Source of the DNA: Peptoniphilus sp. BV3C26
Lineage (GTDB): Bacteria > Bacillota > Clostridia > Tissierellales > Peptoniphilaceae
NCBI RefSeq assembly: GCF_000478985.1
Contig: NZ_AWXB01000039.1
Coordinates: 62,001 to 126,000 of the forward strand
DNA: 64,000 bases
Reading direction: 5' to 3'
Shown here: positions 11,626-63,108 of the stretch, piece after piece
How the letters are laid out: each line of letters opens with the position of its first letter
Numbering within the stretch: the first letter of the stretch is position 1
Program-made: the position numbers and the translations under genes
The notes under the pieces: model-generated
Database searches by the model: none
Told to the model about the DNA's origin: nothing
What the model saw: the letters and a program-made list of their open reading frames with translations, nothing else

Positions 11626-11659
11626 TTTTATTAAAAATTAAAGTAAAAATAATTTTTTT

Positions 11660-11677
11660 ATGCTTTACGTATAGCAT
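11660..11677. repeat. Small dispersed hairpin repeat, copy 1
   Basis: ATGC(TTTACGTATA)GCAT with flanking T/A runs. One of six copies of an 18-bp hairpin (others at 58439, 58658, 58952, 62279 and 63082) whose stem sequence varies while pairing is kept. Confidence 0.55.
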
Positions 11678-11681
11678 TTTG

Positions 11682-11985
11682 TTTTTATTAAAAAAGTTGT
11701 AAGTTTTTCTACTTACAACTTTTATTTTTATATGTTTAATATTTTTTGTGCGTTTTTATAAAAAATTTTATTATATATTTCTTTTGTTATTTCTTTTTCT
11801 TCTAAGAGTTTATTTAAATAATCCATTAGGGGAAAATATTGGTCTTTTTGGTATATGTCTGTTCCAAACATGAGTCTATCTTGAAATTCTTTTATAAATT
11901 TTATTCCAAATTCTTTATCTCGCATAAGGGCATTGCCGCCACTGTTTGCTGATAAGTCAAAGTAGAGATTTTTATATTTTCTTAA
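11682..11985. repeat. 304-bp direct repeat, left copy (island boundary)
   Basis: Ungapped match to 20439-20742 with three mismatches seen by eye in 304 bp. It contains the terminator and the last ~86 codons of the amidohydrolase gene. The right copy is part of the intact gene. Together they bracket the 8.5-kb defence/mobile island. Confidence 0.92.
11728..11985 (-). pseudogene. 3' remnant of an amidohydrolase gene
   Basis: The last ~86 codons of the amidohydrolase at 20485-21342, with the same reading frame and stop codon and one amino-acid change near the end (QKILNI versus QEILNI). The frame is cut at 11985, where sequence unique to the island begins, so no start, no metal-binding HxH motif and no first two-thirds of the enzyme remain. 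It is a by-product of island insertion and not expected to be functional. Confidence 0.9.
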
Positions 11986-14306: not shown

Positions 14307-14801
14307 TTAAACCAAAACGGTCAATAAATATGCCAAAATTAAGCTCACGAAAAAGAAGATTATAACTTTTGTGATCTGACTTTTCCCATTAAAACCAAAA
14401 TTATCATAACCCTTAGCACCAACCGTCTCTGGGTAAACTTTAGTCGGCAATTTTAACTTGGTAAGCATGAGATAATCAAAAAAGATAATATCAAAAAGCT
14501 TATATCCTTCAAATAGTATTAAAAATCTAACAAAGGCTTGCTGAAAAGTTAAACTAAATTTTACTGTATCAACAATTGCCCAGACTAGGACGGCTGCAAT
14601 GGTTAGCAATCCAAGTACCATGATAAGTCCGCCGAATATATTGACCCAAATCGGTTTATCTGGCAACTTACTCATCATAACTTTGATATCATCAGGTGCG
14701 CCGAAATGCTTCGAGCCAAATTTCGGTATAATAAGTATAAAATTCACCATCATAATTGATGCTGTTAAGCAAATGATTGTTAACATACCAAGTGTTTTCA
14801 T
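14307..14801 (-). CDS. Integral membrane protein, unknown function
   Basis: About 164 residues with four hydrophobic segments (roughly 8-28, 55-80, 88-105 and 142-164) and a conserved-looking polar stretch between spans 3 and 4 (KLPTKVYPETVGAKGYDNF). Start taken as ATG at 14801; a TTG at 14804 is closer to the AGAGGAG site and may be used instead. It lies 42 bp after the SEFIR gene on the same strand, within the island, so it could be the last gene of that operon. No family recognised. Confidence 0.6.
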   Translation of the reverse strand: MKTLGMLTIICLTASIMMVNFILIIPKFGSKHFGAPDDIKVMMSKLPDKPIWVNIFGGLIMVLGLLTIAAVLVWAIVDTVKFSLTFQQAFVRFLILFEGYKLFDIIFFDYLMLTKLKLPTKVYPETVGAKGYDNFGFNGKSQITKVIIFFFVSLILAYLLTVLV

Positions 14802-14845
14802 CAATTTAGTTTGTCTCCTCTCTTAAGATATAAATCATTGTGCAA

Positions 14846-15766
14846 TTAAAATCTTATGTCTTTTGAAATATCTTCTATATTTCTATAATGATTTTCTATT
14901 TCTTCTTGCTTCTTTCTTTTTAATTGTTCTTCTCTTCTTCTATATTTTTTTTCTTCTTCATTTGTTTTCTCTACACACAAGATTAGGGTATCTCTATGAT
15001 ATTTTTGTACCTCTTCGATTGTTGTTCCATCTAAAATAATTCTATCTGAATCAACTCTGGCTATTCCAGGTCTATGCATTGATGTAAAGCTTGGTGGGTA
15101 ATCCCAGTTTCTTAAAAATAATTCAGACCATGTGTCAGTTGGTTTGCTAGATAATCTAAAAGGGACACTATACAAAGCAGAGCCTCTTGTTCCATCATTT
15201 TTTGGCAAGGTAACTTCATTTGTTATAATGCCTACGATTTTTATATCCTCTCCCTCAATTGTTATCGGTTCATATTCATCAACATAATATGGTCTTATAC
15301 CTACTTTAGGTTTCTTTTTAACTTTAAATATCGATGCAATAAGATCCTTATATGATTCTTCATTAAATGGATTACCTCTTAAATCTATTGCAAGTTTTCC
15401 GTTTAGGTAAGTAGGTAAAGCTGTATTGAAATCTCCTTGTCTGATGATTGGAATAAACTTCCTATCATTGTGATTATTGTAGAGTTCCGCAGATATTATA
15501 TGACTTTCATAACCTACACCTTTTTCTCTATTATTAGCTTTCCTTTTATACTCTTCAGTGCATATTATAATTACATAATCACTATCTCTTATCGAGCTTT
15601 CCATAAATTTTGGAAGTCTATCCCCTGGACTTACATCATAACTATCTATTATAGCTTCAATACCATCTGATAATAATTTATCTGCTAAAGATTTAACCCA
15701 ATCTGAGTGTTCTTTACTTTCCCATGAATATGATATAAATACTTTTGGAACGTTACTTTCTGTCAT
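14846..15766 (-). CDS. SEFIR (TIR-like) domain protein
   Basis: A 306-residue protein. Residues 7-135 are a SEFIR domain: KVFISYSWES (8-17), LADKLLSDGIEAIIDSYDV (27-45), PGDRLPKFME (47-56), DSDYVIIICT (61-70) and GVGYESHIISAEL (83-95). Bacterial SEFIR/TIR domains act as immune effectors, often NAD-degrading; Glu87 is a candidate catalytic residue. The C-terminal part (~150-270) has a conserved-looking block ending in DRIILDGTTIEEV and a highly basic/acidic helix at the end. It starts 11 bp after the type III res gene, so it is almost certainly cotranscribed with the restriction-modification genes. The effector activity is inferred. Confidence 0.88.
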   Translation of the reverse strand: MTESNVPKVFISYSWESKEHSDWVKSLADKLLSDGIEAIIDSYDVSPGDRLPKFMESSIRDSDYVIIICTEEYKRKANNREKGVGYESHIISAELYNNHNDRKFIPIIRQGDFNTALPTYLNGKLAIDLRGNPFNEESYKDLIASIFKVKKKPKVGIRPYYVDEYEPITIEGEDIKIVGIITNEVTLPKNDGTRGSALYSVPFRLSSKPTDTWSELFLRNWDYPPSFTSMHRPGIARVDSDRIILDGTTIEEVQKYHRDTLILCVEKTNEEEKKYRRREEQLKRKKQEEIENHYRNIEDISKDIRF

Positions 15767-19978: not shown

Positions 19979-20165
19979 TTATACTTGTGCTTGCGTTAGT
20001 ATTTATTGAGATAGTCCTTGTTTTTTCCTTGTCCCACTTGGAACTGCTCCAAATCCTTACCCTTCGATAGGCTTTTTTAGGGTGGAAAAGCTTACGCTTT
20101 TCTTTCCTATTGTTTTCATTGAGGTTAAATCTGTATTTATTCTTTTTTATTTTGTTTTAATAATT
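19979..20165. repeat. Partial composite repeat with GAAAAGC hairpin
   Basis: The segment around 20080-20140 contains the hairpin GAAAAGC-TTAC-GCTTTTC and the downstream CTTTCCTATTG block that also occur near 59130-59190 and 62645-62710. The leading GAGGGGGAC stem found in those copies is missing here. Confidence 0.6.
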
Positions 20166-20410
20166 TCGCCTGACGGCGATCGGACCAATAGCAGATATTT
20201 GCTGCCAAATCAAAGATTTGGGCAAATAGTTGCATGAGACCTACCACGATTTTTTTCAAAAATCGGGTTAGGTCTTCAAAGTTGGTCCCTACATTCGATT
20301 GCGGAGTTCTATTCTTTTGAAACCTCTTCGCATAAAATTGCCCCACATGACCTGTGGGCTTTTGTGGGGCCTAGGGACTGGTTTACCGGTCCGTGTATAC
20401 AATGTGGGAG
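20166..20410. repeat. Composite palindromic intergenic element, copy E1
   Basis: Starts with CGCCTGACGGCG, then GGACC...GGTCC arms separated by a ~100-bp structured insert (including CCAAATCAAAGATTTGG), a CCCAC/GTGGG hairpin, and ends with GGACTGG-TTTA-CCGGTCC and a GTGTATACAATGTGGGAG tail. Nearly the same order recurs at 62739-63024, and a shorter form at 58751-58909. Confidence 0.75.
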
Positions 20411-20438: not shown

Positions 20439-20742
20439 TTTTTATTAAAAAAGTTGTAAGTTTTTCTACTTACAACTTTTATTTTTATATGTTTAATATT
20501 TCTTGTGCGTTTTTATAAAAAATTTTATTATATATTTCTTTTGTTATTTCTTTTTCTTCTAAGAGTTTATTTAAATAATCCATGAGGGGAAAATATTGGT
20601 CTTTTTGGTATATGTCTGTTCCAAACATGAGTCTATCTTGAAATTCTTTTATAAATTTTATTCCAAATTCTTTATCTCGCATAAGGGCATTGCCGCCACT
20701 GTTTGCTGATAAGTCAAAGTAGAGATTTTTGTATTTTCTTAA
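20439..20742. repeat. 304-bp direct repeat, right copy (island boundary)
   Basis: Three mismatches to 11682-11985, no gaps. It comprises the terminator and the 3' end of the intact amidohydrolase gene. Recombination between the two copies would remove ~8.76 kb and leave one intact gene. Confidence 0.92.
20447..20480. terminator. Terminator after the amidohydrolase operon
   Basis: Perfect stem AAAAGTTGTAAG/CTTACAACTTTT with an 8-nt loop and A/T runs on both sides. A copy lies at 11690-11723 in the left repeat. Confidence 0.8.
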
Positions 20743-21342
20743 AAGGTAGCTAAGTCTTCCTTCTTCTACTTTTCCTTTTGGATATTCGTTTCTTTCTTCT
20801 ATGGTGAGATTTTCTTTGTTTTTTGAAATTTCAAACCAAAAGGGCTGTGAGTGTCCTATAAATATTAGTTGAGGAAATTTTTTTAGGGCTTTTTCCAGTC
20901 TTGGAAGGCCTTGTTCGTCATACACTCCGTAATATTTTCCTATTTGCGGGCTTATGTGAAATAGGACTGGCATTTTATTTTTCTGACAGGCATCGAATAA
21001 AAGGAAAAGTTTTTCTGAGTCTATTTCTTTGTTATAGGTTAGTTCTCCTATTCCTAGTGCTCCTAATGCTTTTTCTTCTTTTATTCTTTCTTCTATTTTG
21101 TCTTCCTTATCCAAGTCTATGTTACACATATAACCATATCTTTCTGGATATTTTTCTACTATTTTTCTCAGTTCATAGTTACTCATTAAGTCTTCTTCTT
21201 TTTCTGAACTGGACATTAATATGGATTTGTATATTCCCCTTTTATTCATGGATTTTATCATTTCTTGGGGATTTATTATTTCTTCTCCGTTTAATTTTTG
21301 TCCTTCTTTTTCTGTTACGTGAACGTGTATGTCAATCTTCAC
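20485..21342 (-). CDS. Amidohydrolase (metal-dependent TIM-barrel hydrolase)
   Basis: About 285 residues of the amidohydrolase-2 family. The N-terminal HVHV metal motif, GYMCNIDLD and GELTYN strands, a mid-protein FHISPQ and GHSQPF (metal histidines) and LMFGTDIY with the terminal catalytic Asp are all present. The start is set at the GTG at 21342, eight bases after AAGGAG; the GTG at 21351 lies directly on the ribosome site. It overlaps the upstream symporter gene by about 11 bp. Substrate unknown; the neighbours suggest uptake and hydrolysis of an organic acid or glycoside-like compound. Its 3' 300 bp are duplicated at 11682. Confidence 0.85.
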   Translation of the reverse strand: MKIDIHVHVTEKEGQKLNGEEIINPQEMIKSMNKRGIYKSILMSSSEKEEDLMSNYELRKIVEKYPERYGYMCNIDLDKEDKIEERIKEEKALGALGIGELTYNKEIDSEKLFLLFDACQKNKMPVLFHISPQIGKYYGVYDEQGLPRLEKALKKFPQLIFIGHSQPFWFEISKNKENLTIEERNEYPKGKVEEGRLSYLLRKYKNLYFDLSANSGGNALMRDKEFGIKFIKEFQDRLMFGTDIYQKDQYFPLMDYLNKLLEEKEITKEIYNKIFYKNAQEILNI

Positions 21343-22729
21343 CTTTTTCACTCCTTAGAGCAAGTTCTGCTGCTATTTGATCACTTTTTTCTTTGTTTAG
21401 ATTAAATATAAATACTATTCCTATTAATTCTATAATACATGCTGCTAGGGGTATTCCCGTTCCAAGATATCTTATGGCACTTATTACGTGTGGGCTTTGG
21501 TTTGCTGCTCCTGTTACAAATCCTACAATACTTAATAGGGCTGTTGCTCCAAAGGATGCTAGTGTTGAGCCTATTTTTCTTGAGAATGTATAGATTGAAT
21601 ATAGGGTTCCGTCATTTCTTTCGTGGTAGATATATTCATGATAGTCTATTGCGTCTGCTACAAATGCCCAAACAAGCATTACAAAGGTACATTGTCCTAT
21701 GTTTGCAAGGGTCATTAGTATTATATAAATTTTTACTTCTTCTATTGGTTTTACAAATAGGAGGATGGCTATTACAAGGTTCCATAGTAGGGCTCCTATT
21801 AATAGTTTTTTCTTTCCTATTTTTGTGGAGAGTCTTGGTACTATTACAAAGAGTATAACTGTAAGGGGTATTTGCAAATACATATACATTGATTGCATTT
21901 TTGGTGCTTTGTAAAATTCTTTAAATATAAATCCGCCAAATTGTGAATTTCCTGTTATAAATATAAGAGATCCTATTGATGCGAACATTATTCCAAGCAT
22001 GGCTTTATTTTTTAATGCTTGTCCTACTACTTTAAAGAAGGAGTATTCTTTATTTTTTGTGTTTTCTTCAGATTTTTTGCTTGCATATGAATGTCTTTCT
22101 ATGGTGAAAAGCATAAGGATGGTGTAACAAATTAGGCATCCAAGGGCTGCTATTATCCCTACTTTTAGATAGCCTGAAGGATTTGGGTTGTTATTTGAAT
22201 CCCAAATAAACATTGGTATTACTGACATAAATCCATATCCTACAAGGGTTCCCCCTATTGCTCTACATGCGGATAATTTACTTCTTTCTGAGGGTACAAG
22301 GGTTACTACTGATGCCATTGCTCCAAAGGGCATTGAGGTTCCTGTGTAACTTACTCCGTATAAAATATATACAAAGGCTACCCAAATATGTTTTGTGATT
22401 TCTCCAAAGCCAAGGCTTGTTACGTCAAAGAAGCCAAGTAATATTGATATGGCTAAGGGCCACATGAATATTTTTATCCAGGGTTTAAATTTGTCTGTTT
22501 TTTTACTTATTTTAAATCTGTCTGGTAGTGATCCTATTAGTGGGTCGTTTACTGCGTCAAATAGTCTTGCAAATAAAAATAGTCCTGACATAAATTTAGG
22601 GTCTACTTTTAAAACGTAAGTTGTAAATACGAGGAAGAAGGCGTCGAATGTAAGATTTACAAAGGATCCTGCCATATCTCCTGCTATATATCCTATTTGG
22701 TCTTTAATTCCAAAGGGTCTGAATTTCAT
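21332..22729 (-). CDS. GPH-family sodium:glycoside-type symporter
   Basis: A 465-residue membrane carrier of the MelB/XynP branch of the MFS superfamily. The N-terminus reads IGYIAGDMAGSFVNL, and ARLFDAVNDPLIG follows helix 2, the cation-binding helix signature of GPH symporters; about 12 hydrophobic segments. Although the family is named for sugars, members also take up other organic solutes. Good AGAGGTG site. It sits between the alpha/beta hydrolase and the amidohydrolase in one operon and probably imports their substrate. Confidence 0.88.
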   Translation of the reverse strand: MKFRPFGIKDQIGYIAGDMAGSFVNLTFDAFFLVFTTYVLKVDPKFMSGLFLFARLFDAVNDPLIGSLPDRFKISKKTDKFKPWIKIFMWPLAISILLGFFDVTSLGFGEITKHIWVAFVYILYGVSYTGTSMPFGAMASVVTLVPSERSKLSACRAIGGTLVGYGFMSVIPMFIWDSNNNPNPSGYLKVGIIAALGCLICYTILMLFTIERHSYASKKSEENTKNKEYSFFKVVGQALKNKAMLGIMFASIGSLIFITGNSQFGGFIFKEFYKAPKMQSMYMYLQIPLTVILFVIVPRLSTKIGKKKLLIGALLWNLVIAILLFVKPIEEVKIYIILMTLANIGQCTFVMLVWAFVADAIDYHEYIYHERNDGTLYSIYTFSRKIGSTLASFGATALLSIVGFVTGAANQSPHVISAIRYLGTGIPLAACIIELIGIVFIFNLNKEKSDQIAAELALRSEKGED

Positions 22730-44675: not shown

Positions 44676-44860
44676 TAAAAAAACCGCCCCTATAAAGGGA
44701 CGGTTTAACCGCGTTGCCACCCAATTTGATTCTTTCGAATCCTCTTTAAATGTATGACTCCGAGACGGATTCAAGTTTTACGACACTTTCTTGCACCAAA
44801 CGAAAGCTCTCTTAAGTCGATACGACTTTACTATTTCTCTTCACAGCCCTATTAAATTAG
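44676..44860 (-). promoter_or_regulatory. T-box riboswitch of serS
   Basis: The minus-strand leader ends with the T-box sequence GGGTGGCAACGCGG and a terminator AACCGTCCC...GGGGCGGTTTTTTT; stem I elements (GAAGAG, GGTGCAAG) lie upstream. A TCC codon in the AATCCG context of the specifier loop fits serine. Uncharged tRNA-Ser would bind and allow read-through into serS. Confidence 0.9.
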
Positions 44861-52284: not shown

Positions 52285-52420
52285 AAAAAAGCCCCTTTCA
52301 AGGCTTACAAAAATATTACTTCTTTCATCCGGACTATAACCGTCGGTATCGGAATTTCACCGATTCATGCAAATGCTCGCGGACTTTACCGCCGGTGAGG
52401 AATTACACCTCGCCCTGAAG
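52285..52420 (-). promoter_or_regulatory. FMN riboswitch (RFN element)
   Basis: Minus strand begins CTTCAGGGCGAGGTG and includes ATTCCTCACCGGCGGT, CGGTGAAATTCCGATACCGACGG and GTCCGGATGAAAGAAG in this order, all diagnostic RFN segments. A terminator AAGCC-TTGAAAGG-GGCTT with a run of T (52285-52307) follows. FMN represses the rib operon by termination. Confidence 0.97.
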
Positions 52421-52445
52421 ATTTAAAAATATCTACTTAATTAAT

Positions 52446-58423: not shown

Positions 58424-58438
58424 TTATCGTCTTTTTTT
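58415..58438 (+). terminator. Terminator overlapping the marR stop codon
   Basis: GACGAT/ATCGTC stem with the stop codon TGA (58421-58423) in its loop, then CTTTTTTT. Confidence 0.75.
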
Positions 58439-58456
58439 ATGCTTCACGCCAAGCAT
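58439..58456. repeat. Small dispersed hairpin repeat, copy 2
   Basis: ATGCTTcacgccAAGCAT, with the family loop replaced and the stem conserved. Confidence 0.55.
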
Positions 58457-58650
58457 TTTTAAAATTATATTCTAATTTTGAATTAACATTAATTTTAAAT
58501 TATTTAAGAAATCCTTCCATTTTAAACAAACTTCTTTCTTAACATAATCTTTAAAAATCCTCTAGGGACCAATTTATTGGTCCGTGTGTATATTGTGGGA
58601 AAACAAACCATGCATTTGATTTAAAATTTATTTTAAAATTTTTTACAAAT
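58457..58650. repeat. Direct repeat flanking metNIQ, downstream copy
   Basis: This AT-rich block, including AACATTAATTTTAAATTATT and the hairpin GGACCAA-TTTA-TTGGTCC (58566-58583), is nearly the same as 62297-62480. The hairpin there is GGACCGG-TTTA-CCGGTCC, so both stem sides changed together. Confidence 0.75.
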
Positions 58651-58657
58651 ATTTTTT

Positions 58658-58675
58658 ACGCTCTACATAGAGCAT
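58658..58675. repeat. Small dispersed hairpin repeat, copy 3
   Basis: ACGCTCTACATAGAGCAT, the best-paired copy (GCTCTA/TAGAGC). Confidence 0.6.
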
Positions 58676-58750
58676 TTTGTTTTAAATTTTTCCAATAAAT
58701 CTTTTTTCTATATTTTTTCTTTCTCATTTTTTATTTTATTTTCAATCATT

Positions 58751-58909
58751 CGCCTGACGGCGACCGGACCAATAAATTGGTCCCTACATTCGCTTGTAAG
58801 GTTTTAATCTCTTGGAACCTTTTCTCACAAAATTATCCCACATTCACGTGTGGGATTTTGTGGGCTGTAGGGACCGGTTTACCGGTCCGCGTGTATAATG
58901 TGGGAGAAC
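58751..58909. repeat. Composite palindromic intergenic element, copy E2 (short form)
   Basis: Left end CGCCTGACGGCG and GGACCAATAAATTGGTCC, core with CACAAAAT...ATTTTGTG and CCCACA/TGTGGG, right end GGACCGG-TTTA-CCGGTCC and a GTGTATAATGTGGGAG tail. The whole 160 bp can fold as one long imperfect palindrome. It lacks the ~100-bp insert of copies E1 and E3. Confidence 0.75.
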
Positions 58910-58951
58910 AAAATAAATATTTGATTTAAAATTTATTTTAAATTATTTTTT

Positions 58952-58969
58952 ATGCTCTACGTGAAGCAT
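58952..58969. repeat. Small dispersed hairpin repeat, copy 4
   Basis: ATGCTCTACGTGAAGCAT; same consensus as 62279 and 63082. Confidence 0.55.
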
Positions 58970-59044
58970 TTTTATTTTTAAAAATTTTCAATTGAAATTT
59001 TTTCTGAATTTTTTCTTTTTCATTTTTTATTTTACATATGTAAC

Positions 59045-59200
59045 GCGAGGGGGACTAATGGACTTGCGATTGTCCCTATCCGTCCCCCTCACACTCCCCC
59101 TCCTTACCCCTCGAAACGCTTTTAAGATGTGGAAAAGCTTACGCTTTTCTTTCCTATTGTTTCTGTGGAGGTTGAATCTACATTTATTCTTTTTCGTTTT
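59045..59200. repeat. Composite repeat with GAGGGGGAC stem, downstream of metQ
   Basis: Perfect 9-bp arms GAGGGGGAC (59047-59055) and GTCCCCCTC (59082-59090), then the GAAAAGC-TTAC-GCTTTTC hairpin and a CTTTCCTATTG block. Same module at 62563-62715. It ends about seven bases from the metQ stop codon. Confidence 0.75.
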
Positions 59201-59206
59201 TTTATT

Positions 59207-60040
59207 TTATTTCCAAGCTACTATTGAAGAGCCCTTGCTTTCTTTTTTGATTACTTCTTCTGTATCGTCAGATTGATATGCTGCTACTATTTTTTTGAAT
59301 ACTTCATTGTCTTTGTCTTCTGGTCTTGCTGCAATTATATTTATATATGGTTTTGAGTTTTCGTCTACTGGTTCTAAGAATATTGAATCTGTTGTTGGAC
59401 TATATCCAGCGTCTGTTGCTACTCCATTGTTTATACATGCTGCGGTCACATCGTCTAATGCTCTTGCTGTTTGTGATGCGTCCATTGGAATTATTTCTAG
59501 GTTCTTTGGATTTTCTATAATGTTTTTAGGTGTCAATGGATCTCCTGGTTTTCCGTCAACTTTTATAAGTCCTGCAGTTTGAAGAAGAGCTATGGCTCTT
59601 GCTTGGTTTGAAACGTCGTCAGGGATTGCAATTTTATCTCCATCTTTTATTTCATTTACGTCTTTTATCTTATTTGAGTAGATGCCAAGGGGTGCAAGCA
59701 CTGTTTTACCAATAGAAACTATATTTGATTTTTTGTCTTCGTTAAAGTGATCTAAGAAGTTTTGATGTTGAAATGAATTTAAATCTATATCTCCTGATAA
59801 AAGTGCTGCATTTGGTTGATTGTAATCTGTAAATTCAACAAGTTCTGCTTTTATTCCTTCTTTTTCAAGTTTTTTTATTACAAAATTCCAAGTGTCTGAC
59901 TTGGTGCCTACAACTCCTATCCTAACTGGACGATCTTTTCCTATATTTTCGTCTACTTTGTTTGCCTTATTTTTTGAACCACATGCTGTTAATGCTAATG
60001 CTAATCCTAATATTCCTAAAATTTTAATTGTTTTTTTCAT
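59207..60040 (-). CDS. metQ: Methionine ABC transporter substrate-binding lipoprotein MetQ
   Basis: 277 residues. Lipoprotein signal with LTAC lipobox (Cys20). NlpA-family domain: RIGVVGTKSDTWNFV, then ELVEFTDYNQPNAALLSGDIDLNSFQHQNFL, characteristic of MetQ. Binds L- or D-methionine outside the cell and passes it to MetI. Last gene of metNIQ; GAGGAAA site. Confidence 0.95.
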   Translation of the reverse strand: MKKTIKILGILGLALALTACGSKNKANKVDENIGKDRPVRIGVVGTKSDTWNFVIKKLEKEGIKAELVEFTDYNQPNAALLSGDIDLNSFQHQNFLDHFNEDKKSNIVSIGKTVLAPLGIYSNKIKDVNEIKDGDKIAIPDDVSNQARAIALLQTAGLIKVDGKPGDPLTPKNIIENPKNLEIIPMDASQTARALDDVTAACINNGVATDAGYSPTTDSIFLEPVDENSKPYINIIAARPEDKDNEVFKKIVAAYQSDDTEEVIKKESKGSSIVAWK

Positions 60041-60050
60041 TTTATTTTCC

Positions 60051-60719
60051 TCATCTTTCTAATTTTTTTATTGCTAAATTTGATATTCCTTGTACAAAAT
60101 ACACAAGTATTAGTATAAGGACCATTGATACTATTACTACGTCGTCTTGAAATCTATTATAACCGGTGGCTATTGCAAGTTTACCTAAGTCTTGAGCTCC
60201 TATGGCTCCTGCCATGGCGCTAAGTCCTATTAAAGAGATCATTGTAAGGGCTGAAACCCTTATTAAATTTTGAAGTCCTTCTCTTAAATAAACTCTTGTG
60301 ATTACATAAAAGGGACTATCCCCCATGGAAATTGCAGCTTCTATAAGCCCTTCATCTATTGAAGATAAGGCTGATTCTACTTGCTTTGCATAAAAGGGGA
60401 AAGCTCCAAAGAAAAGTGGAACTATTGCTGCTGTCGCTCCTATTCTTGTGCCGACAATTGCCTTTGTTAGTGGAGCTACCACTGCCAAAAGAATTATAAA
60501 TGGTACAGCACGAAGAAAGTTTATAATCTTATCCAATATGGAGTTTAAAACTTTATTTTCCAGTATTCCCCCTTGTTTTGTGGTGACAAGTACTATTCCA
60601 AGTATTAGTCCAGCTATACCTGCAAAGATTGAAGTAAAAAATACCATATAAATTGTTTCTAAAGTTGCAGGTAAAAAGTCGCCTTTAATAGCTATTACAT
60701 TTTTAAAAAATTCACTCAT
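60051..60719 (-). CDS. metI: Methionine ABC transporter permease MetI
   Basis: 222 residues, five spans. The cytoplasmic coupling loop is EAAISMGDSPFYVITRVYLREGL (about 131-155), the EAA motif of ABC permeases. ATG overlaps metN by 8 bp; GGAGGAA site. Confidence 0.94.
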   Translation of the reverse strand: MSEFFKNVIAIKGDFLPATLETIYMVFFTSIFAGIAGLILGIVLVTTKQGGILENKVLNSILDKIINFLRAVPFIILLAVVAPLTKAIVGTRIGATAAIVPLFFGAFPFYAKQVESALSSIDEGLIEAAISMGDSPFYVITRVYLREGLQNLIRVSALTMISLIGLSAMAGAIGAQDLGKLAIATGYNRFQDDVVIVSMVLILILVYFVQGISNLAIKKLER

Positions 60720-61755
60720 TTTCTTCCTCCAGTCTAAGTTCTCTTACCCTTACATTTTTTTCTTTCATGTAGTCAAAGGCTTCTAAGATGTTTTTACAAT
60801 CTCCCTTTAAGGAAACTATAAGCACACCAAGAGGTGTATTTTGTATAAACTCTACATTGCCCCATAGTATTGATGTCACTACATCAAACTTTTTATAAAG
60901 CTCAAGGATTATTGGCTCCAAGGTTGAATCTCCTATATAGTCAAGCCTTACAAGTTTTGAATTGTCCGATGTAACTAAATCCTTATTATTTTTTAAAGTT
61001 TCTAATACTTCTTCTGATTGGATTGTGCTTTCAATAAACTCTTTTGTAAGTTTATGCTCTGGATTAGAAAAGATTTCTAAAACAGATTTGCTCTCAACAA
61101 TGTTTCCATTTTCCATTACAGCACACTTTGTGCAAATGGATTTAACCACCTGCATTTCGTGAGTTATGATGACTATTGTAAGTCCCAGATCTTCATTTAA
61201 CTTCTTCAAAAGTTTTAATATTTGAGAAGTGTTTTGTGGATCCAGGGCTGAAGTAGATTCATCGCAAAGAAGTATGTCAGGATCATTTGCAAGTGCTCTT
61301 GCTATGGCGACTCTCTGTCTTTGACCTCCTGAGAGTTTACTCGGGTAATCATCTCTTTTTTCATAGATGTCCACCAGTTTCAAAAGTGATTCTACTTTTT
61401 TAATTTTCTCACTTTCTTTTAATTTTGAATGCTTCAAGGGATAGTAGACATTTTCAAATATAGTCCTCGTTGAAAAGAGATTAAAATGTTGAAAAATCAT
61501 CCCTATCTTCATTCTTTTTTTTCTAAGTTCCTTTTCAGTTAATTTTGTTATATCCTCTCCCTTTATATATACTTCTCCAGAATCCGGCCTTGTAAGTAAA
61601 TTTATACATCTTACCAAGGTTGATTTTCCGGCTCCAGAGTAACCAACAATTCCAAATATTTCTTTTTCTTTTATTTTAAGAGATACATCCCTTAGTGCGT
61701 GTACCACCTTATTTTTATTTTCAAATGCTACACTTACATTCTTTAGTTCTATCAT
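60712..61755 (-). CDS. metN: Methionine ABC transporter ATPase MetN
   Basis: 347 residues. Walker A GYSGAGKST (38-46), Q-loop, signature LSGGQRQR (140-147), Walker B LLCDEST, H-loop. The C-terminal ~80 residues form the NIL/ACT-like domain that senses methionine and inhibits the transporter. First gene of the operon after a T-box leader. Confidence 0.96.
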   Translation of the reverse strand: MIELKNVSVAFENKNKVVHALRDVSLKIKEKEIFGIVGYSGAGKSTLVRCINLLTRPDSGEVYIKGEDITKLTEKELRKKRMKIGMIFQHFNLFSTRTIFENVYYPLKHSKLKESEKIKKVESLLKLVDIYEKRDDYPSKLSGGQRQRVAIARALANDPDILLCDESTSALDPQNTSQILKLLKKLNEDLGLTIVIITHEMQVVKSICTKCAVMENGNIVESKSVLEIFSNPEHKLTKEFIESTIQSEEVLETLKNNKDLVTSDNSKLVRLDYIGDSTLEPIILELYKKFDVVTSILWGNVEFIQNTPLGVLIVSLKGDCKNILEAFDYMKEKNVRVRELRLEEENE

Positions 61756-61780
61756 TTTTCCTCCATCAAATTTAAATAAA

Positions 61781-62040
61781 AAAAACGTCCTTTCTATCCA
61801 TATAGGATAAAAAGGACGAAATTATTCCGCGTTACCACCTTAATTGCATTTAAAATAAAAAATGCCTCTTCATGTACCATCATACACTAACTCTGTAACG
61901 GGAGTTCCCGTGTGATTCTAAATATCGAACCACCCTATCAAGAATCATGTTCAAAAGATCTCATCTTGCTACTCTCACCACAATATAGCTTCTCTGTAAA
62001 GACTAAAATTCTTTTTACTCTTTCTTTCAAATAGTTTTTA
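61781..62040 (-). promoter_or_regulatory. T-box riboswitch of metNIQ, methionine-type
   Basis: Minus strand carries the T-box AAGGTGGTAACGCGG (61841-61827), stem I elements including GGTGAGAG and AGTAGCAAG, and a terminator CGTCCTT...AAGGACG with eight T (61788-61818). An ATG in the GAACATGATTC context of the specifier loop fits tRNA-Met, in keeping with the genes controlled. Confidence 0.88.
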
Positions 62041-62072
62041 ATTTTTAAGTTTCTTTTTTAAACTTGTTTTTG

Positions 62073-62101
62073 ATTGTACGAGCTGTGGAAAAATTTGTCA
62101 A
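62073..62101 (-). promoter_or_regulatory. Promoter of the metNIQ transcript
   Basis: Minus-strand perfect TTGACA (62101-62096), 17-bp spacer, TACAAT (62078-62073). Confidence 0.8.
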
Positions 62102-62139
62102 CACTATTTTTAAAATTTTTAAAAAAAATTTTTTTAAGT

Positions 62140-62250
62140 TTTTTTGCAAAAATCGCCTCAGGTATTCAAAATTGGCCCTTGCATTCCTTTGCAGAGATTT
62201 TCTTTTGTGAGCATGTAAACTGGTCCACATGTGTTGAGTGGGAGAAAAAA
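62140..62250. repeat. Degenerate copy of the composite palindromic element (E4)
   Basis: The order TTTTTTTGCAAAAATCG, ATTGGCCCTTGCATTC, TTTTCTTTTGTGA, ACTGGTCCACATGTGTTG, GTGGGAGAA parallels copy E3, but many bases differ and the terminal hairpins are decayed. Confidence 0.45.
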
Positions 62251-62278
62251 ATAAATATTTTTTATAAATTATTTTTTT

Positions 62279-62296
62279 ACGCTCTACGTGAAGCAT
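62279..62296. repeat. Small dispersed hairpin repeat, copy 5
   Basis: ACGCTCTACGTGAAGCAT. Confidence 0.55.
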
Positions 62297-62480
62297 TTTT
62301 AAAATTATATTTTAATTTTGAATTAACATTAATTTTAAATTATTTAAGAAATCCTTTCATTTTAAACAAACTTCTTATTGCCACAACCCTTGAAAATCCT
62401 GTAGGGACCGGTTTACCGGTCCGCGTGTATAACGTGGGAAAACAAAACCTGCATTTGATTTAAAATTTATTTTAAATTTA
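62297..62480. repeat. Direct repeat flanking metNIQ, upstream copy
   Basis: Near-identical to 58457-58650. Contains GGACCGG-TTTA-CCGGTCC (62405-62422) and the CGTGTATAACGTGGGAAAAC tail. Confidence 0.75.
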
Positions 62481-62562
62481 CATTTTTATTTTATTTTATG
62501 TTTTTTCAATTTATATTTTTTCTACATTTTTTCTTTCTCTTTTTTTATTTTAAATATGTATC

Positions 62563-62715
62563 GCGAGGGGGACTAATGGACTTGCGATTGTCCCTAACGT
62601 CCCCCTCGCACTCCCCATCCTTACCCCTCGAAACGCTTTTTAAAGGTGGAAAAGCTTACGCTTTTCTTTCCTATTGTTTCTGTGGAGGTTGAATCTGCAT
62701 TTACTTTTTTTCATT
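62563..62715. repeat. Composite repeat with GAGGGGGAC stem, upstream copy
   Basis: GAGGGGGAC (62565-62573) and GTCCCCCTC (62599-62607) arms, then GAAAAGC-TTAC-GCTTTTC and the same tail as at 59045. Directly followed by element E3, as in the 20-kb region. Confidence 0.75.
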
Positions 62716-62738
62716 TTTTTATTTTGTTTTAATAAATT

Positions 62739-63024
62739 CGCCTTACGGCGATCGGACCAATTGCAGATATTTGCAGCCAAATCAAAGATTTGGGCAAATA
62801 GTTGCATGAGACCTACCACGATTTTTTTACAAAAATCGGGTTAGGGCTTCAAATTGGTCCCTACATTCTGTTGAATGGGTTTTCTTTTGTGAAACCTGTT
62901 CGCATAAATTTACCCCACGTTTCTGCATGGATTCCATGTTTGGATAAAATTACAATAAATTTATTCGTTGGTTTTTGTGGGGCCTAGGGACCGGTTTACC
63001 GGTCCGCGTGTATTGTGTGAGAGA
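62739..63024. repeat. Composite palindromic intergenic element, copy E3 (long form)
   Basis: CGCCTTACGGCG, GGACC...GGTCC with a ~100-bp structured insert as in E1, a variable middle, GGACCGG-TTTA-CCGGTCC and a GTGTATTGTGTGAGAG tail. Confidence 0.75.
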
Positions 63025-63081
63025 ACAAAATAAATATTTGATTTAAAATTTATTTTAAAATTTTTTATAAATTATTTTTTT

Positions 63082-63099
63082 ACGCTCTACGTGAAGCAT
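63082..63099. repeat. Small dispersed hairpin repeat, copy 6
   Basis: ACGCTCTACGTGAAGCAT, ten bases from the MATE stop codon. Confidence 0.55.
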
Positions 63100-63108
63100 T
63101 TTTATTTT

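Follow-up and report, generated by a model that had tools for sequence, protein, structure and literature searches.

Composite repeats in the window

The DNA analysed here, referred to as the window, is a 64,000-nucleotide stretch of contig NZ_AWXB01000039.1 (positions 62,001 to 126,000, forward strand) from Peptoniphilus sp. BV3C26, the genome of which is a 1.93-Mb draft in 69 contigs. The window contains copies of a non-coding intergenic repeat, the E element, whose ends are short hairpins with the arms GGACC and GGTCC. These hairpins were found to be repetitive extragenic palindromes (REPs), and a cognate REP-associated tyrosine transposase (RAYT) is encoded on another contig.

Three composite copies, two isolated ends and one decayed copy were located, at the places given in a preliminary description made from the sequence alone. 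The first long composite copy (20166..20410) consists of a left sub-terminal hairpin, a left REP of the AA type holding an insert (the guest), a spacer, a right REP of the GG type and a tail; the arms of its AA REP lie at 20182-20189 and 20282-20288 with the guest (20190..20274) in the loop, and its GG REP (20371-20392) has one G-T pair. The second long copy (62738..63105) has its sub-terminal hairpin at 62738-62751, AA REP arms at 62754-62761 and 62853-62860, a guest in the loop at 62762..62847, the right GG REP at 62984-63005 and a tail with GCTCTACGTGAAGC. Both guests matched model R1 with 98.5 bits, and both copies with all these parts are on the + strand. The short composite copy (58750..58960, + strand) is REPIN-like, that is, an inverted REP doublet, and comprises a sub-terminal hairpin (58750-58763), an AA REP that reads on the - strand (58766-58787), a spacer, a GG REP (58867-58888) and a tail. 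Also on the + strand are an isolated AA/TT-type REP with a right-type tail (58562..58583), an isolated GG/CC-type REP (62401..62422) and the decayed copy (62140..62300), in which both hairpins are degenerate and which is involved in direct repeats D6 and D14.

A genome-wide family of GTAG-ended hairpins

A search of the genome with the 22-nt pattern GTAGGGACCNNTTTANNGGTCC, allowing up to three mismatches, revealed 106 sites of the hairpin GTAGGGACC-NN-TTTA-NN-GGTCC, about two of them chance fits, with 52 and 54 sites on the two strands. The same pattern read backwards gave no site in the genome, so the family is far above chance. A long copy used as BLAST query produced 133 matches. The preliminary description would have been refuted by a small number of copies and a lack of covariation; the search instead gave 106 sites with compensated stem changes, so this check did not refute it.

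The hairpins examined numbered 103, being the 105 matches of a script pattern in the window and 31 genome stretches minus two false matches inside the guest, and this count is possibly too low as some copies abut contig ends. Fifty-two have an AA/TT stem, 48 a GG/CC stem and three an odd one. The stem is perfect in 95, departs only by G-T pairs in three and is mismatched in five, a distribution biased toward intact stems by a search seeded from the consensus. The foot is GTAG in 85 hairpins, CTAG in 15 and another sequence in three. A left-type flank accompanies 50 of the 52 AA hairpins and a right-type tail the other two, while all 48 GG hairpins and the three odd-stem ones are right-type; nine of these calls were made by eye, the script having scored both types. 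AA left ends and GG right ends face one another.

The two stem variants noted in the preliminary description are thus real paired forms that mostly mark the two ends of the element, and its TTTA and TAAA loops differ only in the strand that is read. Its inference of selection for the fold from two-sided changes is supported, best by the related genomes described below, but was overstated for this genome, where the stem types are mainly end markers. Among homologous positions, the two-sided change is clearest between the hairpins at 58562 (AA/TT, right-type tail) and 62401 (GG/CC), whose 5′ flanking DNA is 93% identical (direct repeat D12).

Inward-facing AA-GG pairs no more than 200 nt apart were found 28 times, with peaks of the inner spacing at 79 nt (9 pairs) and 119 nt (7 pairs); the same 200-nt limit also gave 23 outward-facing pairs and 16 pairs of further kinds, among them tandem AA copies. 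Outside the left REP lies a small sub-terminal hairpin which, in 68 left ends, has the stem CGCC/GGCG in 25, CGGC/GCCG in 21 and other pairings in six; the remaining 16 have no stem of four pairs, and several have mixed, unpaired arms. The right REP has a conserved tail on its outer side, GCGTGTATAATGTGGGAGAACAAAATAAATATTTG in typical copies. Serial small palindromes like GCTCTACGTGAAGC, the motif of the E tail, separated by T-rich spacers, were also seen at locus L046 (contig 15, ~14787-15332).

When folded as single strands, three composite pieces gave z-scores of -7.8 to -8.3 against shuffles (-7.8 for 58748-58895), and the isolated GG end gave -2.0. All but one of the 103 hairpins lie outside open reading frames (ORFs) of at least 120 aa, the exception being within an unsupported 129-aa ORF that spans an array. 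The hairpins fall into 29 clusters with 1 to 11 members each; 14 clusters lie between co-directional genes, three between convergent and two between divergent genes, and ten at the edge of a stretch.

The family therefore has the features of GTAG-type REPs, namely a short GTAG-ended palindrome, high extragenic copy number and stem variants that keep complementarity, as well as that of REPINs, an inverted REP doublet with a spacer predicted to fold as one hairpin. We conclude that the E elements are GTAG-type REPs together with composites like REPINs or bacterial interspersed mosaic elements (BIMEs), belonging to a REPtron in a member of the Bacillota. The earlier suggestion of a family like REPs or miniature inverted-repeat transposable elements (MITEs) can be stated more exactly as a REP family with its cognate RAYT.

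A RAYT gene bounded by the same hairpins

The statement that no transposase is present holds for the window only. A single match to Pfam Y1_Tnp (PF01797) was found in the genome, with 37.8 bits against a cut-off of 23. It is an intact RAYT gene of 154 aa on the minus strand of contig 23, with its ATG at 1271 (locus L038), and lies (810-1271 plus stop) between an AA-left REP (1328-1349) and a GG-right REP (764-785). Read in the coding direction, the order is a CGGC/GCCG hairpin, the AA-left REP, GGAGG before the ATG, 154 codons, the stop, 21 nt, the GG-right REP, a tail and further REP units; the gene starts on the inner side of the AA-left REP. The two flanking REPs are in inverted orientation within an array of the same elements, and six more REPs are on this contig. 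Fifteen nucleotides just inside the left REP of the unit, CAATGGTTTAAAATT, are common to one neighbouring gene-less unit, which fits an internal deletion of the RAYT unit as judged from this shared stretch.

By far the best curated model for the protein was the NCBIfam REP-associated tyrosine transposase NF047646 (E = 6.8e-18). The HxH motif (H79, H81) and Y138 are invariant in all nine aligned sequences, its own included. In a sequence search of the PDB, the only match under E 0.01 was TnpArep, 4er8 (E = 0.0017), and Y138 aligns to a stretch of this E. coli enzyme containing Y115; in PMC8266576, Y115F is the catalytic mutant of that enzyme. An AlphaFold model built from nine sequences (mean pLDDT 81.5) gave as its top fold match in the PDB the same 4er8, a RAYT with bound REP hairpin (E = 1.2e-8, TM 0.65), followed by the ISDra2 and IS608 transposases.

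RAYTs and hairpins in related genomes

RAYT relatives of 31-41% identity were found in 10 other genomes among 130 of the family. At five of these 10 loci (L076, L080, L081, L082 and L083), GTAG stands beside a hairpin of at least seven pairs, one base separating it from the stem in L080. One degenerate REP pattern, drawn from three GTAG-hairpin loci, matched 27, 14, 27 and 35 times in four genomes, each with a RAYT; controls gave 0. No site of it was found in ten further genomes scanned, five with a RAYT (that of BV3C26, G062, G096, G116 and G134) and five in which none was found (G001, G063, G066, G132 and G135); G063 and G066 are of the same genus as two of the pattern-bearing genomes. Of the 103 hairpins in the four genomes, 82 have perfect stems, and two-sided changes occur at three pairs: G-C 63 and T-A 28; A-T 93 and G-C 9; C-G 82, T-A 15 and G-C 4. 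Gene and hairpin are found together again, in sequences of another kind, in some of the related genomes.

Comparison with Peptoniphilus duerdenii

The nearest named relative found was P. duerdenii (NCBI: Tissierellales, Peptoniphilaceae), with a MetI protein 95% identical. With at most two mismatches, the hairpin occurs at 103 sites in the BV3C26 genome and at none in P. duerdenii; across the 130 family genomes, three others had single two-mismatch sites, a level that the control also reached. To assign the family to the genus, as the preliminary description did, is thus too wide on the one other genome of the genus compared. The exact 22-mer had no match in GTDB genome contigs, a set from which the BV3C26 genome is perhaps absent.

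The metNIQ operon (window 59207-62120) is 86% identical to that of P. duerdenii, and at the element array on either side the two genomes cease to be collinear; for the metNIQ region, the one compared, this suggests that arrays may be points of recombination. A 7.6-kb stretch used as query against P. duerdenii gave scattered matches and guests, and no empty site. A decayed RAYT in P. duerdenii was considered and rejected, as the weak PF01797 match there (20.6 bits, below the cut-off) does not align with the RAYT of BV3C26.

The guest element

The insert of about 100 bp that had been noted within the left hairpin of long copies is a guest of about 86 nt without a gene, lodged in the REP loop. 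It forms two hairpins, GCA..ATTTGC..CCAAATC-AAA-GATTTGG..GCAAAT..TGC and GACCTAC..GTTAGGTC, with a bulged T. The genome has 17 copies of 94-100% identity; as had been described, the host is the left, AA-type hairpin in 16 of them, but in one it is of the GG type. The junctions, listed for 16 of the 17 copies, read GGACCAAT^[insert]^AAATTGGTCC: the TAAA loop is split after T (T^AAA) with no target duplication, and some copies have one additional base on the right side. Truncated guests were also seen in REP loops (L051 at 792, 2724 and 3459; L068 at 6344; L070 at 754), broken straight after (A)GCAGATATTTGC (TCAGATATTTGC in L070), as if this site were prone to deletion.

BLAST (E <=0.01) found guest relatives in 41 of the 130 family genomes, its own included, many of the matches being short. 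With a covariance model (E <=1e-4), the guest was recognised in 99 of the 249 genomes searched in the order (about 40%), again its own included, and these represent 42 of the 92 genera; copies per genome range from 0 to at least 17, high counts being lower bounds because at most 18 candidates were scored in each. In an alignment of 20 diverse copies (102 columns), 89.4% of the cells pair in the named structure, a share biased in its favour as the structure was set on the same 20 sequences; sliding the partners lowers pairing to 24-47%. Two-sided changes occur at 16 of the 29 pairs, and covariation scores 0.267, compared with 0.136 for shuffled alignments, none of 500 shuffles being as high. 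Further pair types are no more numerous than in shuffles (29 against 27.1; 117 of 500 as high).

Rfam searches (4227 models at gathering thresholds) found no guest family in the window. At 14 loci, 13 of them with guests (E <=0.1 or 1), no family at gathering threshold covered a guest, the only families being T-box, tRNA and rRNA; matches below gathering were attributed to chance, and one of them, S774 (33.7 of 48 bits, L158 1467-1564), overlaps a guest. A query of plasmids gave no guest, and an exact-pattern search of viral contigs gave two contigs from one sample.

The settings of the guest vary. At L116, in another genus, it is enclosed by a relative of the hairpin of the C element (a second repeat of the window, described below), a hairpin that is empty at window 62558-62640. 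At 8 of 47 distinct loci scanned, tRNA or 5S rRNA genes lie no more than about 200 nt away, the guest being at differing points of the operon. At four places within tRNA gene clusters it seems to interrupt a duplicated 5′ tRNA fragment in its D-loop (L129 790-873, L130 1498-1581, L140 1485-1568 and L161 1501-1584); L129, L130 and L140 belong to one genus. At L123 (1402-1571), two head-to-tail guests and part of a third, recognised by BLAST, lie beside a T-box-like leader (90.3 bits, gathering 93).

Three simple accounts of the guest were rejected. A host hairpin is not the general rule, flanking stems of at least six pairs surrounding seven of 52 copies as against 4.2% of mismatched flank pairs; for stems of at least seven the figures are five of 52 and 0.8%, and three of the seven copies with at least six pairs come from BV3C26. 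A source in an IS110 element was dismissed, PF02371 having no match in this genome while 4 of 14 control genomes match. Integron attC sites carry the motif GTTRRRY, which GTTAGGT in the guest resembles, yet the opposite arm, GACCTAC, is not its full complement.

Other features of the window

The C element is a second structured repeat, each copy of which is close to E-element sequence. One copy, a hairpin unit GCGAGGGGGAC..GTCCCCCT with a 3′ part, is at 59040..59212 (direct repeats D3 and D11; a low-copy companion of the arrays), a second at 62558..62735 immediately 5′ of the long copy at 62738, and a 3′ part alone at 20034..20165 immediately 5′ of the long copy at 20166, all on the + strand. 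As the main repeat it was rejected, having just five to six copies. A 300-nt direct repeat, 99% identical, joins window 11682-11981 and 20439-20738; it is a duplicated fragment of the gene of 288 aa at 20485-21351, beside element-tail-like sequence at 11641-11685. The minus strand carries two T-box leaders and a flavin mononucleotide (FMN) riboswitch (61809-62039, 44693-44853 and 52313-52426), and some 100 nt separate the T-box leader at 61809-62039 from the decayed E copy.

Probable mobility of the elements

The copy number, the pairing of stems, the ordered ends, the gene position, the predicted fold and, in some relatives, the co-occurrence of hairpin and RAYT make us highly confident that the REPs spread by the RAYT acting on single-stranded hairpins. 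Most likely, this one TnpAREP-like HUH/tyrosine nuclease would recognise the single-stranded REP hairpin plus its GTAG foot, cut beside it and rejoin the DNA, so that non-coding units are copied or moved in trans between genes; stem changes would be compensated because the hairpin is the substrate. Since the gene is bounded by a left-type and a right-type REP in inverted orientation, it is likely that the gene with its two flanking REPs is the autonomous unit, the roughly 100 other hairpins then being non-autonomous relatives. Long copies are REPs that host an independent structured guest of about 86 nt in the loop, which has probably multiplied along with the REP.

Several results weigh against spread by the RAYT. 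The protein scores 64.9 bits, under the NCBIfam REP_Tyr_transpos cut-off of 80, which just one of nine relatives scanned passes (L075, 82.9); this enzyme cut-off is the sole tested REP/RAYT feature on which the system falls short. Promoter-like sites at the RAYT are at chance level (4 against 4.6 expected), and most non-coding units differ from the RAYT unit in their interior, descent by internal deletion being supported for one unit only. In the related genomes, five of the 10 RAYT loci have no GTAG beside a hairpin of at least seven pairs within the locus searched, the RAYT-bearing G062, G116, G096 and G134 have no copy of the one REP pattern tested, and 17 of the 103 stems are mismatched and four have G-T pairs, ten of the 17 being a repeated G-G variant in G064 and G065. 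Nor was an empty site found: P. duerdenii is without elements at the metNIQ operon, but synteny is broken at both arrays, so that no insertion was seen.

The inverted ends, non-coding interior and many copies would also suit MITEs of a lost classical DDE transposase, the RAYT beside some of them then being a coincidence. The ends are, however, self-complementary hairpins with a GTAG foot and so differ from simple terminal repeats, one left and one right end bracket the RAYT exactly, and gene and hairpin are paired again with other sequences in some related genomes; the transposase search besides RAYT covered IS110, and we regard such an origin as extremely improbable. That the elements are functional RNA structures, such as terminators or mRNA stabilisers selected site by site, we consider very unlikely. 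In favour of it, they are extragenic, co-directional genes flank 14 of the 29 clusters, the GG REP that follows the RAYT gene has a terminator-like score, and paired changes occur in the sub-terminal hairpin; against it stand the clusters of up to 11 hairpins in arrays and the contrast of 103 copies with none in the congener. An RNA, which the preliminary description left as an option, is thus not supported for the REPs, which may have a secondary use as terminators or mRNA stabilisers.

For the guest the choice is closer. Its strong covariation and its position near stable-RNA genes at 8 of 47 loci are what a conserved non-coding RNA would show, and on the modelled strand G-U pairs outnumber A-C (25 to 12); that strand, however, is antisense to the tRNAs in seven of the eight stable-RNA operons, so that the strand hints conflict. 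Variable copy number and location, occurrence on both strands and in tandem, and 17 near-identical copies all within REP loops here also tell against this explanation, which we hold doubtful, though not to be dismissed lightly. Because of its nesting, multiplicity and placement, we lean slightly to the guest as a mobile passenger of hairpin loops. On a tentative reading, it may be a new small structured mobile family in the Tissierellales that enters loops of other DNA hairpins and in this genome rides the RAYT-mobilised REP, a parasite within a parasite; its hosts would then be the loops of REPs in BV3C26, the hairpin of the C element in a second genus and D-loops of tRNA fragments elsewhere.

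Comparison with known REP systems

The REP/RAYT literature that we encountered concerns Proteobacteria, and here a complete system is found in a low-GC anaerobic coccus. Its absence from a congener offers a natural experiment on whether REP populations depend on the RAYT for their persistence, and RAYTs with differing GTAG hairpins in one family are material on how the enzyme reads the stem. The most novel part is the guest, which covaries, occurs in about 40% of the genomes of the order searched and has no Rfam match in the sequences scanned. Among the papers listed in literature searches that covered few subscription papers, none was recognised as dealing with REP/RAYT in Peptoniphilaceae or with the guest. 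Di Nocera et al. 2013 (PMC3733652) divide GTAG repeats into 24 families and find tagged REPs in members of eight phyla; they also point out stem residues that vary yet stay complementary, and they name tail-to-tail dimers. The main text of that paper has no mention of Firmicutes, Clostridi, Anaerococcus, Finegoldia or Peptoniphilus.

In E. coli, the REP/BIME system with TnpAREP (yafM, a RAYT) has an HUH/tyrosine enzyme of the same predicted fold (4er8), the GTAG foot and extragenic composites, as here. Its gene stands between two different inverted REPs (Y and Z2; Nunvar et al. 2010, PMC2817692), corresponding to the AA and GG types of BV3C26. Unlike the REP of E. coli, the present REP has a stem of seven base pairs that forms a perfect palindrome without a bulge, closed by a TTTA loop, the host is a member of the Bacillota, and some loops carry an 86-nt guest.

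REPINs were defined, with compensatory changes reported, by Bertels and Rainey 2011 (PMC3116915). Those of Pseudomonas fluorescens SBW25 are likewise inverted doublets with a spacer, a predicted hairpin, compensatory changes and a link to a RAYT, and their common inter-REP spacings are 71 and 110 bp as compared with 79 and 119 here. They differ in that the GTAG feet of BV3C26 point inward (tail-to-tail in the term found in PMC3733652) and that the sequence of its left REP is not that of its right one. Group 3 REPtrons of Stenotrophomonas and Marinomonas (PMC8266576) also have perfect-stem REPs, that of Marinomonas being TTTA-looped as well; the stems are other than those here, and the likeness is one of REP features.

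The IS200/IS605 elements share the enzyme fold (IS608 and ISDra2 are among the matches) and hairpin ends, but their family model reached 21 of the 55 needed, and here one gene accompanies about 100 non-coding hairpins. REP-targeting insertion sequences such as ISPpu9 and ISPpu10 (PMC1525189) resemble the guest as elements lodged inside a REP, while the guest is of about 86 nt and gene-less, and this genome has no IS110-type (PF02371) gene. On its defining features, the Peptoniphilus system is a REPtron.

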